From positions 1 to 46,618 of the forward strand of contig JAHHGV010000057.1 in the NCBI GenBank assembly GCA_019359695.1: a DNA stretch of 46,618 bases, in the 5' to 3' direction. Below are positions 5,022 through 46,618 of this stretch, in pieces (position 1 is the first letter of the stretch; the number at the start of each line of letters is the position of its first letter). The notes under the pieces are model-generated. The model worked only from the letters and a program-made list of their open reading frames with translations. It had not been told where the DNA came from and made no database searches. The stretch is from Brasilonema angustatum HA4187-MV1. GTDB taxonomy: Bacteria > Cyanobacteriota > Cyanobacteriia > Cyanobacteriales > Nostocaceae. The position numbers and the translations under genes are program-made.

Positions 5022-5129
5022 ATGAATAATCATCTGGTCAACCGCTTCATTTTTCGTAAACAAAACGGAATAACCTTTCCAGTTTTGCGGATTTTTATAC
5101 CAATTAATTTTACAGCCATTTTTAGGTAA
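5022..5129 (+). pseudogene. truncated 5' copy of the beta-helix gene (copy 1)
   Basis: ATG followed by the same 25 codons as the intact gene at 5778 (M-N-N-H-L-V-N-R...L-R-I-F). It then runs into the next repeat unit for ten codons and stops at TAA. If translated it would make a 35-residue peptide with the basic N-terminus but only part of the signal-peptide core. Confidence 0.85.
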
Positions 5130-42085: not shown

Positions 42086-44680
42086 TCAATTTTGAAGTAT
42101 GGAACGCTGGCTTTTTAATTGGAGGAGTGTTTTCCAATCTTGTAAAGTATTCTCGGTCCAAAGCCAATTTTTCGTCAATTCTTTGACCTCAAAATTCACT
42201 GGATCATCTCTAACAATCATTTGACGCAGCTTAATGGCTTCATTCAGATATTGCTCGCGTTTTCCATTTGGTTGGTTGTTTGCAGTTTTATACAAACCAA
42301 TAGCTAACCCAGCATAAGCTGTTAAAGCATCCCGAGGGACTGGCTTTGAAGGTAAAAATGTTGTCGCAGAAGCAGCAGATTTACTCTGCTGCTCTCTGAC
42401 TGCAAAACTCAACGCCTTAAACCAAGAGTCATTTGCTCGGTTAAGATTACCTTGTGCGTAGTAAGCAAAGCCTAAAGCATTATTATACAAAATTGAATCT
42501 GGTTCAGCCTTGAGCGCACTTTCCCAATAACGACGGGCATCATCGACGCTATATCTATTGTTTCCTGTCTGGATAAATTGCCATGCTAATCGCCCCTTAA
42601 AGAAATAGACTGATGGATTGTCTGCAAACTGTTCAGGAATGGCGTTAAGGGCGGCTTGAGCGTTAGGAAGTACATTACGATTAAGCAGTTCTTCCACAGC
42701 ATCGAGTCCTGTTTGCAAGTCCCCCTGACTCAATTTGTCGGTGGCAATTTCAGTGACAACTTTAGTTTCAGTCGTTTTAAAATTGGCTTGTGGGCTGTTA
42801 GAGCTTTGTTGTTGAGACTCAGGACGAATGAGCGGTATTGGTTGATTGTGCGACCACCAGTTGAAACCGACAACGGCTGCTATAGCACAAAGTGCCGTTC
42901 CTGCAAGGGCGATCGCACTAACTCCTATACTACCCCGCGAGACTTTACGTTTGCCTTGTTTTGGTTTTGCTGTTTGTGTCCGCCGAATGGTGGTTGTTTG
43001 AGCTAATGGCAGGACATTCGAGTTTTCCCAGTCTTCTTCCAAGTCCAGATCTTCTTGGCGACTCAGTTCACTATTGAAGGCAACTTCGCGAGGATCTGCG
43101 CCCTGCTGTCTACCATTGGATGCGGCTTCACGGACTTCTTCCCACATCCCGGTATCATTTTCTAGCGAAGCTATTTCACCTGAAACTTCTTTGTCATCAA
43201 GGCTATCTTCCCCAAATTGCACAAGTTCCGCTTTCATGGAAGATTGCTCAGATGTCTTTTGTTTATCTAGCTGGCGGAACAAATCTGAAACAATCGCTGA
43301 ATCCTCTTCATAAGTTGGGTCATCGTACTCAATTTCATCAATCAGGTCGCCCCAGGTCTGTTCCCCTAGCAAGTCTAGATCATCGAATGAGTCTCTTGCC
43401 AAAGATGAGGGTAACATATCCTCAAGGGGTAAAGGCATACTGGCGTCGTTTGCCTGATCTGAGTAAATTATTGCTGACGTCTTTAAAGAGGGATTGTACT
43501 CGTTAAATAACTCCTCACCTTGAGGTAAGGATATCTCTGGGCTAAGATAGCCGTCAAATCCTGGCTGGATATAAAGAGTTGGTAGTGCCCAGTATAGTTG
43601 GTGCGAACCATAGGCAGCAATCAATCCTTGGCGCATCCGACTCACGCACAAATCCACAGGATACCCGTGAGAAAGGTTGCGATAAAACAATTGTGTTAAC
43701 AGTAGTGCCACTTCATCAGGAATACGTTCTGACATCGCCAAAACACTCCTGATGCCCCGCCTGACCAAGCTTTCTGTCAAATTACGTTCCCCTGTGTCTC
43801 TTACTGCACCAGAGGAGGTCGCTGCATATGTTCCCAGGCAGGAGTTAAACACTGCCATTTGGATGTTATTGTTGACCAACAAGCCCGCCAAGTCGTCACC
43901 ACTGAGGGTTTCTCTTAAACCTGTTCTGCTACTGACAAGATAAATTTCTCCACCGTTAAGACCTATGTTACTGTGACCAGAGTAGTGCAGAACGTGGTAT
44001 CGTCCTTGTTCTAGGGCTTGTGTTAATTCTTCTCGCCCTGGTTGTTCTAACAGGGTCAGCTCTATGTGCGGCAGATAATTGCCACTTTCGCCAGGTTGAA
44101 GTTCCGCTTGGAGTTTGATAGCTTCTTGTTTGAGCAAATCTAGACGCACGAGATCTGTGGGAGAAGCAATTGCCATCAATACCTTTAGCCCGCCTTCCTC
44201 TGCTGGTGCTGGCATACCTGTTGACGGCAAACGAGACGTTCTACCAATTCCATTTTGGTAGCGAGAAAAAGCGATATAGGGTCCAGTCGCAATCGGGCGA
44301 TCGCCTGCATGCATGACTTCCCAAGGTAGACGTGCTAATTTAGTATCTTTGAGCCCTAATCGCAAACGCAACACCTGTTGGTGGTTTTGGGCTATTCCTT
44401 GTGCCGTAATCCAACTATCTCTGAGAGTGCCTTGAAACAGTGCATTATAAAGTTGCTGACCCAACGCTACCAAGTTGACGGAGTTTCGTGCTAGAGCATC
44501 TCCCTGCAGCACCGACTTCAACGGGTCATTCATCAAATGTCCCGCCGCTGTCAACCAATCAGCCACAGGCCAAGTCACCAGTTCTTCTGCTAATGGCACC
44601 CCAGGCGCGACTTGTTCCGTGCGCACCAAGTAGTCATTTTGCCCTACTGGGGTTACGGAAATGTGAAATTCCTGGGTCAC
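42086..44680 (-). CDS. hetF: heterocyst differentiation protein HetF (CHAT-domain, caspase-like)
   Basis: An 864-residue protein. Residues about 80-375 form a CHAT (caspase-like) peptidase domain with the dyad His236 (L-H-Y-S-G-H-S-N) and Cys281 (V-F-N-S-C-L-G-T). Residues 390-580 are acidic and probably disordered. A single transmembrane helix lies at about 584-607. The C-terminal part (about 640-864) has TPR-like helical repeats. HetF of Anabaena/Nostoc has this build; it is needed for heterocyst differentiation, keeps HetR levels in check and also affects cell division. The start is GTG at 44680 with AGGAG six bases upstream. The identification is strengthened by the NsiR1-like array upstream, the arrangement known from Nostoc sp. 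PCC 7120. Both catalytic residues are intact. Confidence 0.88.
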   Translation of the reverse strand: MTQEFHISVTPVGQNDYLVRTEQVAPGVPLAEELVTWPVADWLTAAGHLMNDPLKSVLQGDALARNSVNLVALGQQLYNALFQGTLRDSWITAQGIAQNHQQVLRLRLGLKDTKLARLPWEVMHAGDRPIATGPYIAFSRYQNGIGRTSRLPSTGMPAPAEEGGLKVLMAIASPTDLVRLDLLKQEAIKLQAELQPGESGNYLPHIELTLLEQPGREELTQALEQGRYHVLHYSGHSNIGLNGGEIYLVSSRTGLRETLSGDDLAGLLVNNNIQMAVFNSCLGTYAATSSGAVRDTGERNLTESLVRRGIRSVLAMSERIPDEVALLLTQLFYRNLSHGYPVDLCVSRMRQGLIAAYGSHQLYWALPTLYIQPGFDGYLSPEISLPQGEELFNEYNPSLKTSAIIYSDQANDASMPLPLEDMLPSSLARDSFDDLDLLGEQTWGDLIDEIEYDDPTYEEDSAIVSDLFRQLDKQKTSEQSSMKAELVQFGEDSLDDKEVSGEIASLENDTGMWEEVREAASNGRQQGADPREVAFNSELSRQEDLDLEEDWENSNVLPLAQTTTIRRTQTAKPKQGKRKVSRGSIGVSAIALAGTALCAIAAVVGFNWWSHNQPIPLIRPESQQQSSNSPQANFKTTETKVVTEIATDKLSQGDLQTGLDAVEELLNRNVLPNAQAALNAIPEQFADNPSVYFFKGRLAWQFIQTGNNRYSVDDARRYWESALKAEPDSILYNNALGFAYYAQGNLNRANDSWFKALSFAVREQQSKSAASATTFLPSKPVPRDALTAYAGLAIGLYKTANNQPNGKREQYLNEAIKLRQMIVRDDPVNFEVKELTKNWLWTENTLQDWKTLLQLKSQRSILQN

Positions 44681-45010
44681 AACTGCTCCTGTTTGCCTCC
44701 TAAATCTGGTTTGAAACCTGAAAGTTTCAAGTCGATGTTTTGCTTTTTCTTATACCTTAGATGCATCCTGGCACTGATTGTTTCTGGTTCGTGTTGTTTT
44801 GCTCATCAGCTTTAAGCTGTAAGGATTCACCGGTCCACGAGTCATAATTCATGCTGTCTTCTCTAGGACTAGCTTAAAAGTCTCGCTCTGATTGCTTCAA
44901 CCTCTGGAGTATCCCAGAGAAAAAATTCTTTGTTCATAAAACTACATCCCATAGATTGAGTTCTTGTACTACAATTTTAAATTCTGAACCAATCTTCTTT
45001 CATAACTTTA
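44681..45010. other. hetF leader/promoter region
   Basis: No gene is supported. This is the 5' side of hetF on the minus strand; the hetF transcript probably starts in or beyond this region. A fragment at about 44759-44780 (TTAGATGCATCCTGGCACTG) weakly resembles the 5' part of the NsiR1 unit. Confidence 0.5.
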
Positions 45011-45103
45011 TCCGGATCTAGTCAGTTTAGCCCAGAACTTTCTTACTGGTAGATGCACCTTGATCTTTACTCCCATGTAGGCTAACACCTTTTGGGAGTT
45101 TTT
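45011..45103 (+). ncRNA. nsiR1: NsiR1-like unit A (hetF-proximal, diverged)
   Basis: TCCGGA at 45011-45016, GGTAGATGCACC at 45048-45059, then a hairpin CTCCCA (45070-45075) with TGGGAG (45093-45098) and five T. The RNA would be about 45052-45103. The -10 region (TCTTACT) is weak. As the copy nearest to hetF and on the opposite strand, it is the most likely antisense partner of the hetF leader. Confidence 0.7.
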
Positions 45104-45288
45104 CTGTCTTTACTGATTTTATTCTCATGCTAGAAGTCGAGGGGTTTCGGATCTTTTGGGGAAAATCATTTACCGACACCTCTACATCCAAATTAATTTT
45201 CTCCTGAACATTTACTAATGTGTTCACACCCTATGAGTTTTTTTGATAACTTATAAAAAATCTCAATTATTTTTTCTAGACCAAATCA

Positions 45289-45384
45289 TCCGGAGAAAGT
45301 CGTTATCTATAGAACATAGTATTGGTAGATGCACCCTGATAACTGACACCCCTAGTGGACTTTCGGCTACTTGGGGTTTTTTTT
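45289..45384 (+). ncRNA. nsiR1: NsiR1-like unit B
   Basis: The promoter has TCCGGA (45289-45294) and -10 TAGTAT (45317-45322). The RNA is about 45328-45384: GATGCACCCTGATAACTGAC, then stem CCCCTAG (45349-45355) with CTTGGGG (45370-45376) and eight T. Confidence 0.82.
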
Positions 45385-45509
45385 ATTTTTAGTGAAAGTT
45401 CAAATTTCACTACAGAACCACTGATAAAAATTTTTATTTCTTTTCTCTTCTGCCTTCTTTTCATTGTAGATAAAAGCAAAATCTTTTTTCCCCTATTTTG
45501 CTGAATTTA

Positions 45510-45601
45510 TCCGGAGAAAGTCGTTATCTCTAGAACATAAGATTGGTAGATACACCCTGATAACTGACCCCTAGTAGATTTTCGGTCACTAGGGGATTTT
45601 T
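45510..45601 (+). ncRNA. nsiR1: NsiR1-like unit C
   Basis: TCCGGA at 45510-45515, -10 TAAGAT at 45538-45543. The RNA is about 45549-45601: GATACACCCTGATAACTGA, then a perfect 8-bp stem CCCCTAGT (45568-45575) with ACTAGGGG (45588-45595), and T residues. The stem changes relative to unit B keep pairing. Confidence 0.82.
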
Positions 45602-45679
45602 CTGACTCACACAACTATAGCTTTAATTTTCGCGCATTTTTTCCAAAATATATAGTTATTTATCAAACACACAAATGAT

Positions 45680-45743
45680 CAATGCATCTTGATAACTCAC
45701 TTTTTTCGTCAGCTACCAGAAACTGGGATTACATTTATTTTTT
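45680..45743 (+). ncRNA. NsiR1-like unit D, degenerate
   Basis: AATGCATCTTGATAACTCAC matches the conserved 5' part with changes, and CTGGGATTACATTTATTTTTT matches the 3' end. No TCCGGA box lies upstream and the hairpin is poor. It is probably a decayed copy without its own promoter. Confidence 0.5.
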
Positions 45744-45793
45744 ACAAAAAATATATTTATTTACTTAGTTATTCATAGAACATAGAATTGGTA

Positions 45794-45852
45794 GATGCAC
45801 CCTGATAACTCACTTCCCTAGTTGGCTACTCGCTACTGGGGATTTATTTTTT
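45794..45852 (+). ncRNA. nsiR1: NsiR1-like unit E1 (promoter box missing)
   Basis: The RNA part is intact: GATGCACCCTGATAACTCAC, hairpin CCCTAG with CTGGGG (one G-U pair) and ATTTATTTTTT. The -10 TAGAAT is present, but the TCCGGA box is absent because homology to the other units begins only at about 45764. It may be silent or expressed differently. Confidence 0.7.
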
Positions 45853-45885
45853 GATACGAAACAAGTGAGAATTTGGCGGTTTTTG

Positions 45886-45920
45886 TCCGGAACACCCTAG
45901 TTATTCATAGAACATAGAAT
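45886..45920 (+). promoter_or_regulatory. DIF1-type promoter of NsiR1 unit E2 (same in E3-E7)
   Basis: TCCGGA (45886-45891) and TAGAAT (45915-45920) stand 23 bases apart, placing TCCGGA around -35 of the expected RNA start. TCCGGA is the DIF1 motif reported for differentiation-dependent start sites in Anabaena. The same boxes occur at 46018, 46150, 46282, 46414 and 46546. Unit E1 has TATTTA in this place. Confidence 0.75.
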
Positions 45921-45925
45921 TGGTA

Positions 45926-45984
45926 GATGCACCCTGATAACTCACTTCCCCTGTTAGCTACTTGCTGCTGGGGATTTATTTTTT
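45926..45984 (+). ncRNA. nsiR1: NsiR1-like unit E2
   Basis: About 59 nt: GATGCACCCTGATAACTCAC, then CCCCTG...CTGGGG hairpin and T-rich end. TCCGGA box at 45886. The loop has the variant GTTAGCTACTTGC and one extra C in the left stem arm in place of the usual T. Confidence 0.82.
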
Positions 45985-46057
45985 GATACGAAACAAGTGA
46001 GAATTTGGCGGTTTTTGTCCGGAACACCTTAGTTATTCATAGAACATAGAATTGGTA

Positions 46058-46116
46058 GATGCACCCTGATAACTCACTTCCCTAGTTGGCTACTTGCTGC
46101 TGGGGATTTATTTTTT
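46058..46116 (+). ncRNA. nsiR1: NsiR1-like unit E3
   Basis: Same 5' part, hairpin CCCTAG with CTGGGG and loop GTTGGCTACTTGC. TCCGGA box at 46018, -10 TAGAAT at 46047-46052. Confidence 0.82.
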
Positions 46117-46189
46117 GATACGAAACAAGTGAGAATTTGGCGGTTTTTGTCCGGAACACCCTAGTTATTCATAGAACATAGAATTGGTA

Positions 46190-46248
46190 GATGCACCCTG
46201 ATAACTCACTTCCCTAGTTGGCTACTCGCTGCTGGGGATTTATTTTTT
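46190..46248 (+). ncRNA. nsiR1: NsiR1-like unit E4
   Basis: Same 5' part and hairpin stem; the loop has CTACTCGCTG. TCCGGA box at 46150. Confidence 0.82.
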
Positions 46249-46321
46249 GATACGAAACAAGTGAGAATTTGGCGGTTTTTGTCCGGAACACCCTAGTTAT
46301 TCATAGAACATAGAATTGGTA

Positions 46322-46380
46322 GATGCACCCTGATAACTCACTTCCCTAGTTGGCTACTCGCTGCTGGGGATTTATTTTTT
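46322..46380 (+). ncRNA. nsiR1: NsiR1-like unit E5
   Basis: The RNA part appears the same as unit E4. TCCGGA box at 46282. Confidence 0.82.
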
Positions 46381-46453
46381 GATACGAAACAAGTGAGAAT
46401 TTGGCGGTTTTTGTCCGGAACACCCTAGTTATTCATAGAACATAGAATTGGTA

Positions 46454-46512
46454 GATGCACCCTGATAACTCACTTCCCTAGTTGGCTACTTGCTGCTGGG
46501 GATTTATTTTTT
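46454..46512 (+). ncRNA. nsiR1: NsiR1-like unit E6
   Basis: The RNA part appears the same as unit E3 (loop CTACTTGCTG). TCCGGA box at 46414. Confidence 0.82.
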
Positions 46513-46585
46513 GATACGAAACAAGTGAGAATTTGGCGGTTTTTGTCCGGAACACCCTAGTTATTCATAGAACATAGAATTGGTA

Positions 46586-46618
46586 GATGCACCCTGATAA
46601 CTCACTTCCCTAGTTGGC
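46586..46618 (+). ncRNA. nsiR1: NsiR1-like unit E7, cut by the window end
   Basis: The promoter (TCCGGA at 46546) and the first 33 bases of the RNA are present; the hairpin is beyond the window. Confidence 0.78.

Follow-up and report, generated by a model that had tools for sequence, protein, structure and literature searches.

The 46,618-nt stretch of DNA analysed here (the window; C94:1-46618 of the assembly) carries hetF and, upstream of it, a run of short tandem repeats that reaches the last base. What are these repeats, and do they belong to the heterocyst program alone? A first-pass annotation had likened them to NsiR1, the short RNA encoded next to hetF in Nostoc sp. PCC 7120. Comparison with RF02399, the Rfam covariance model of NsiR1, bears this out, since the nine complete units with the conserved 5' part all exceed its 39-bit gathering score, with 51.2-64.6 bits and E-values from 2.6e-7 to 1.3e-10. 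On the basis of its anatomy, family membership, neighbouring gene, promoter boxes and relatives, we read the region as an NsiR1 array that works as in PCC 7120 and belongs to a heterocystous cyanobacterium close to Brasilonema, with a probability of about 0.93. A meaningless or protein-coding repeat was dropped as a candidate, since the Rfam matches, promoter boxes, terminators and hetF context account for the array. The array itself adds one more genome to the known NsiR1 family; what makes it worth following up is the family view, with its fixed sister loci and with copies that seemingly predate heterocysts.

The array comprises 11 repeat units on the plus strand, from 45011 to the window end (46618). 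Their conserved 5' part, GGTAGATGCACCCTGAT with no or one mismatch, starts at 45048, 45324, 45545, 45790, 45922, 46054, 46186, 46318, 46450 and 46582, whereas the unit at 45677 deviates from it at five positions. The DIF1 box TCCGGA starts 36-38 nt ahead of GTAG in nine of the 11 units and is absent from the decayed unit at 45677 and from the unit at 45790, whose RNA part is otherwise intact. Both elements had been annotated in all eleven units, which is thus correct for ten of them regarding the 5' part and for nine regarding the box. In the whole window TCCGGA occurs 13 times, nine of them within the array.

Unit 1 (45047..45105, 51.2 bits, box at 45011..45016) corresponds in position to nsiR1.1, being antisense to the probable leader of hetF. 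It is followed by unit 2 (45323..45384, 64.6 bits, box at 45289..45294), unit 3 (45544..45603, 54.2 bits, box at 45510..45515), the degenerate unit (45677..45693), for which the RF02399 search gave no match, and the unit lacking TCCGGA (45789..45850, 60.6 bits). Beyond these lie five further complete units at 45921..45982 (52.4 bits, box at 45886..45891), 46053..46114 (60.5 bits, box at 46018..46023), 46185..46246 (59.6 bits, box at 46150..46155), 46317..46378 (59.6 bits, box at 46282..46287) and 46449..46510 (60.5 bits, box at 46414..46419). The last unit (46581..46618, box at 46546..46551) scores 36.7 bits, below the cut-off, because it is cut by the window end. Tandem Repeats Finder detected a 132-bp period with 6.5 copies and 98% matches from 45766 onward, and the repeat units after this point are 97-98% identical to each other. 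In L047 and L049, two related loci, a unit with 3-4 mismatches corresponds to the degenerate one in its distance from hetF; the same two loci also carry a unit without TCCGGA at the hetF distance of the window unit 45790-45850. Predicted folds of three units show a 3' hairpin followed by a T run, with -14.7 to -16.0 kcal/mol for the whole RNA. Most units would produce, from their own DIF1 promoter, a predicted RNA of ~60 nt ending at its own terminator.

The first-pass annotation had also expected more than eleven copies, with the array extending past the window. Indeed, the C94 data stop at the same bases as the window, and contig C95 opens in the middle of a unit, holds one further full unit at 86-147 and then passes into other sequence. 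The array therefore comprises no fewer than 11 good units plus a decayed one, and this count is only a lower bound since the assembly broke inside identical 132-bp repeats.

The adjoining gene is hetF, as annotated. It lies on the minus strand (42086..44680), has a GTG start and encodes a full-length HetF with a Pfam CHAT domain, scoring 1445.3 bits against the 1200-bit cut-off of the NCBIfam HetF equivalog NF045509; its closest named relatives are those of Brasilonema bromeliae and Brasilonema sp. CT11 (94%). The array is transcribed away from hetF, its first seed lying 369 nt from the hetF start codon. This arrangement is widespread: with up to four mismatches of 17, the seed is present upstream of hetF on the opposite strand in 77 of the 80 named hetF loci compared. 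One of the three loci without it has only 392 nt of upstream sequence, and two of the 80 carry one seed match each on the other strand. Most Nostoc loci have their first unit ~184 nt from the hetF start, compared with 365-377 nt in a group of eight loci, L047-L054, that includes Brasilonema and Scytonema. In PCC 7120, according to the available parts of the published reports, to which all statements on published systems in this text are limited, hetF transcription starts at -256, inside nsiR1.2, so that nsiR1.1 is antisense to the hetF leader. The window array shares this hetF layout at a longer distance.

The hetF leader contains a further conserved element. At 44758..44765 on the minus strand it reads TGCATCTA, an 8-nt perfect complement of UAGAUGCA in NsiR1, and we propose it as a second pairing site. 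Alignment of the leaders places the element near -85, with the consensus GGATGCATCTAAGGTATCAGA. Among 81 leaders (the 80 named ones and that of the window), 73 contain TGCATCTA, 72 of them starting between -79 and -91, against a mean of 0.12 in shuffled leaders. This puts it among the best-conserved 8-mers of the leader, together with GCATCTAA (74 leaders), whereas the purine-rich stretch near the start codon, TAGGAGGC, is present in 69. The eight leaders without TGCATCTA fall into four with an unrelated leader and four with an altered element. To judge from this complementarity, TGCATCTA is a possible trans-pairing site for all NsiR1 copies. Since GATGCATC is palindromic, a DNA site bound by a protein, or some other leader function, is the rival reading of the element, and we give it slightly less than even odds. 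Besides the self-complementarity of GATGCATC, it is favoured by a similar element, GGCATCTA, in genome G174 of family f18, in which the search beside hetF gave no NsiR1 unit, while the other hetF upstream stretches inspected outside family f1 contain no such element apart from the antisense units themselves. Pairing with NsiR1, on the other hand, is in keeping with the exact complementarity of TGCATCTA to the NsiR1 core, with its place among the most conserved leader 8-mers, ahead of the start-codon stretch, and with its absence from the four loci with an unrelated leader.

How the array may act is suggested by PCC 7120, where each NsiR1 unit has its own promoter with DIF1 and HetR dependence, expression is early and heterocyst-specific (PMC9045159), and the targets are hetF and alr3234. 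There, NsiR1.1 reduces hetF translation as an antisense RNA to the hetF leader, and NsiR1.4, which pairs with the alr3234 start region, reduces alr3234 (PMC9045159). From the published mutant (Tyr2 to Asp, two changes) we infer that the alr3234 site pairs with the same NsiR1 seed. By analogy, the units of the window would come under HetR control and be activated early in future heterocysts; with many promoters active at once in early proheterocysts, a burst of seed-bearing RNA could result. Unit 1 would then lower HetF in cis, being antisense to part of the hetF leader, and the remaining copies would do so in trans via the common 5' seed, whereas the sister RNAs described below might offer the same seed under other signals. 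Expression of the array, its timing and repression of hetF are thus presumed from Nostoc sp. PCC 7120.

Three observations weigh against a simple transfer of this scheme. Inactivation or removal of nsiR1.1 in hetF-gfp fusions changed fluorescence little (mBio 2021, available part). A search of the window's genome for an alr3234-like HetP paralogue found none evident, only one HetP-family match. In genome G324 the array lies ~600 kb from hetF (C1:4936306-4937715 vs 5545848), so the hetF antisense role is not universal and linkage is not required. The hetF upstream stretch of G324 has no exact TGCATCTA and only a one-mismatch match.

One could also suppose that the repeats are mainly decayed or selfish, that unit 1 alone matters as the hetF antisense, and that the others are passengers of unequal recombination. 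The loss of the promoter box in 45677 and 45790 and of the seed in 45677 would fit this, as would the 97-98% identity of the units from 45766 on, which is what recent recombination would leave. We nevertheless regard it as very improbable: across distant genomes the seed, TCCGGA and the terminator are kept while the intervening sequence changes, a central copy of PCC 7120 is reported to repress alr3234 in trans, and the array of G324 (L236) persists without adjoining hetF.

Does the seed occur only in this array? The whole assembly contains 12 RF02399 matches above the cut-off, two of which lie outside the array, on C67 (53.5 bits) and C57 (48.2 bits). Below the cut-off are C63 (33.4 bits) and C58:25557 (28.6 bits), and no match at E <= 1 covers the second C58 unit. 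All five units (C67, C57, C63 and both on C58) share the first 16 nt of NsiR1 with at most two differences. According to NCBIfam and Pfam matches, the C67 copy is divergent from cobM, the C57 copy is convergent with exoD, the C63 copy follows gatB and the two C58 units precede argJ. Isolated places with two seed mismatches on C1, C13 and C44 were treated as chance because the control in the same genome gives four matches at two mismatches; a fourth such place, C58:25710, is the second argJ-side unit. Weak RF02399 matches on C74, C73 and C69 (20.6-23.9 bits) have no seed and were dropped.

One of these sisters is the cobM-linked gene. In the window's genome it lies at L010:4922-4972 on the minus strand (53.5 bits, above the cut-off), carries TCCGGA and is divergent from cobM (at 5088). 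Each of the ten other genomes compared within the family has one such 51-nt match at 49.4-52.2 bits; all ten copies read GTAGATGCACCCTGGTTAAGCCCT, carry TCCGGA and are divergent from cobM, at 93-123 nt in nine of them and at 555 nt in the tenth. One of these ten genomes, G142, has a HetF match only at paralogue level, yet it keeps the cobM-linked copy. Outside the family, the cobM arrangement is found in six of the 24 genomes searched one by one (G200, G048, G088, G407, G506 and G527), with one mismatch in the TCCGGA box of G527. A fourth kind of seed-sharing gene, convergent with exoD (L011:4995-5046, minus strand), has a TCCTGA-like box; genes of this type adjoin exoD in G168 (three copies) and in G058, and do not in G318.

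The remaining sisters are linked to gatB and argJ: one short RNA gene after gatB (L012:4559, plus strand) and two before argJ (L013:4560 and 4711, plus strand). This type of pattern is present in 116 of the 388 genomes of the order, and the reversed control gave none among the matches listed. The RNA gene sits between gatB and argJ, and on their strand, in 23 loci from 21 genomes; in the window's genome gatB and argJ lie on different contigs, C63 and C58, with copies beside each. Since they fail the RF02399 cut-off, we call this group seed-sharing relatives rather than NsiR1. TCCGGA was found in none of 35 such units, even with one mismatch allowed. In many of them, but not in all, a GGGGTGACACCCC-like box precedes a TATA-like -10. 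A GGGGTGACACCCC-like palindrome lies upstream of the seed in L127-L135 and L148-L156 as a candidate regulator site, and the f18 loci (L136-L147) showed none. The hairpin is conserved across 43 unique sequences: four predicted pairs out of eight are intact in all of them, three are broken in one or two sequences and the innermost is broken in 11; several pairs vary between standard types.

Given their position, these genes could instead be argJ leader attenuators or a gatB terminator that partly resembles NsiR1, rather than trans-acting sRNAs (small RNAs). Indeed, they share the strand of argJ and precede it, with 124 to 1150 nt up to the argJ start; they also finish in a terminator-like hairpin and lack TCCGGA (0/35). 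However, the C63 copy after gatB has a convergent open reading frame downstream and no argJ match within its 9.5-kb stretch, and genomes of family f15 hold up to 13 pattern matches (G185), both tandem and dispersed. Furthermore, the 16-nt seed is identical to that of NsiR1, and an argJ attenuator would not need it. We consider an attenuator or terminator the less likely reading.

How far does the family extend? RF02399 matches above the cut-off occur in 256 of the 388 genomes of the order. The exact 16-nt seed was found in all 29 genomes of the same family, in 25 of the 47 other genomes of the order, in nine of 41 from further orders of the class and in one of 127 from the rest of the phylum, with no match in 244 genomes for the reversed-seed control. 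The one exact seed from the rest of the phylum belongs to G422, a genome that gave no RF02399 match at E 0.01, and was treated as chance. Weak RF02399 matches alone were not counted since control genomes also give matches below the cut-off (1-10 of 14 at the E-values used). Among the 656 distinct units gathered, 492 carry an exact TCCGGA, usually at -37, compared with 0/656 exact and 10/656 one-mismatch boxes in a control window upstream.

Heterocyst-forming cyanobacteria make up a single clade, taken here as family f1, and a genome without nifH cannot make working heterocysts. Eleven of 15 picked genomes of the order outside the family pass the RF02399 cut-off, and eight of these eleven have no nifH above its own cut-off. 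In eight of the 24 genomes searched one by one (G048, G065, G121, G170, G407, G426, G412 and G419), a DIF1-bearing unit and a HetF homologue are transcribed divergently, with the unit 160-794 nt from the start of the homologue. This count and that of the cobM arrangement (6/24) are lower bounds, as only the fetched loci were compared. No nifH above the cut-off was found in five of the eight hetF-linked genomes (G048, G170, G407, G412 and G419) nor in any of the six cobM-linked ones outside the family; G170, G200 and G407 are single-contig assemblies. In two genomes nifH was seen in two pieces, as if interrupted by an element: ~23 kb apart in G058 (C1:4513206-4537064) and ~4 kb apart in G330 (C1:459928-464697), which has further intact copies. 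For seven of the eight hetF-linked genomes HetF is the sole NCBIfam family matched by these proteins at E 1e-20, and a tree of the HetF N-terminal part, with an unresolved backbone, places all eight outside the supported heterocystous clade and apart from paralogues.

Since hetF and cobM copies with TCCGGA occur in other orders and in nifH-free genomes, the supposedly heterocyst-specific box and the hetF/cobM arrangement look older than heterocysts. We hold it to be fairly probable that NsiR1 is no heterocyst invention, that an ancient sRNA family of the class Cyanobacteriia includes it as one branch, that the heterocyst program recruited and multiplied this branch, and that the siblings act on the same messenger RNAs (mRNAs), hetF first. 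Such a family would place a single, almost unchanging 16-nt seed under different promoters at conserved loci, namely hetF and cobM (TCCGGA), gatB/argJ (often a GGGGTGACACCCC-like box) and exoD. The unit of DIF1 promoter, NsiR1 and hetF would already have been present in ancestors without heterocysts, before the heterocyst program took the family over and multiplied the hetF copy, and sibling RNAs would answer different signals while acting on the same mRNAs, above all hetF.

Several results speak against this view. In the interval tested, exact TCCGGA is missing from 129 of 616 distinct hetF-type and unclassified units, and three of the 11 RF02399-positive genomes outside the family do have nifH. 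The HetF homologues outside the family score 593-919 bits, below the 1200-bit equivalog cut-off, and the hetF tree does not give a single origin of hetF linkage (six changes; 101 of 500 shuffles are as low; the backbone is unresolved and the bootstrap unsettled). The sister loci are not entirely constant either: the L221 copy lies 555 nt from cobM instead of ~116, the cobM-type copy of G065 (L239) has no cobM within its 6-kb stretch, and no exoD match was obtained for L233, one of the four loci of the exoD type that were compared.

If the family view is correct, it changes what NsiR1 can tell us. An RNA and a promoter motif that are called heterocyst-specific sit beside hetF and cobM where no nifH was found, and in other orders, so that the role of HetF, DIF1 promoters and NsiR1 before heterocysts becomes a testable question in simple strains. 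Moreover, because the seed is common to them, the sisters, above all the cobM-linked one, matter for NsiR1 knock-down and overexpression studies.

The literature consulted gave no match for the seed sequence, a cobM-linked small RNA or a hetF-linked sRNA of non-heterocystous strains; the original descriptions of NsiR1 and NsiR2 lie outside this scope. Two published cases temper the claim of a new family. NsiR2 and NsiR3 are further Anabaena sRNAs raised on nitrogen depletion (PMC6316151); NsiR2 appears in the available part of that source by name, with neither sequence nor place, and could be one of the sisters found here. RNA162 of Limnospira indica PCC 8005 is a 57-nt NsiR1-like RNA of a non-heterocystous host (PMC8400943), so that an NsiR1-like RNA outside heterocyst formers is already on record; its locus and promoter are not stated in the part available. 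The general design recalls, by description only, Yfr1 and Yfr10 of cyanobacteria, sRNA families with one common motif and a variable remainder (PMC6778093), although their motif and families are other than those of NsiR1. A closer parallel is Nodularia spumigena CCY9414, with an NsiR1 array of 12 repeats upstream of hetF (PMC3610870). Genome G298, taken as this strain, gave 13 RF02399 matches at E <= 0.02, one of which (C1:1958566-1958616) is the cobM-linked sister and is unmentioned in the available part of that report.

The window differs from PCC 7120 in that unit 1 lies 369 nt from the hetF start, against ~184 nt in most Nostoc loci, in its homogenised 132-bp units with one decayed unit and one without TCCGGA, and in that no alr3234-like HetP paralogue was found in its genome. 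In place, size, orientation and DIF1 box, nevertheless, the array agrees with the published description of Nostoc sp. PCC 7120: in both, tandem copies encoding RNAs of ~60 nt lie upstream of and antisense to hetF, with a DIF1 promoter per unit, and the peripheral copies diverge where the central ones are identical.

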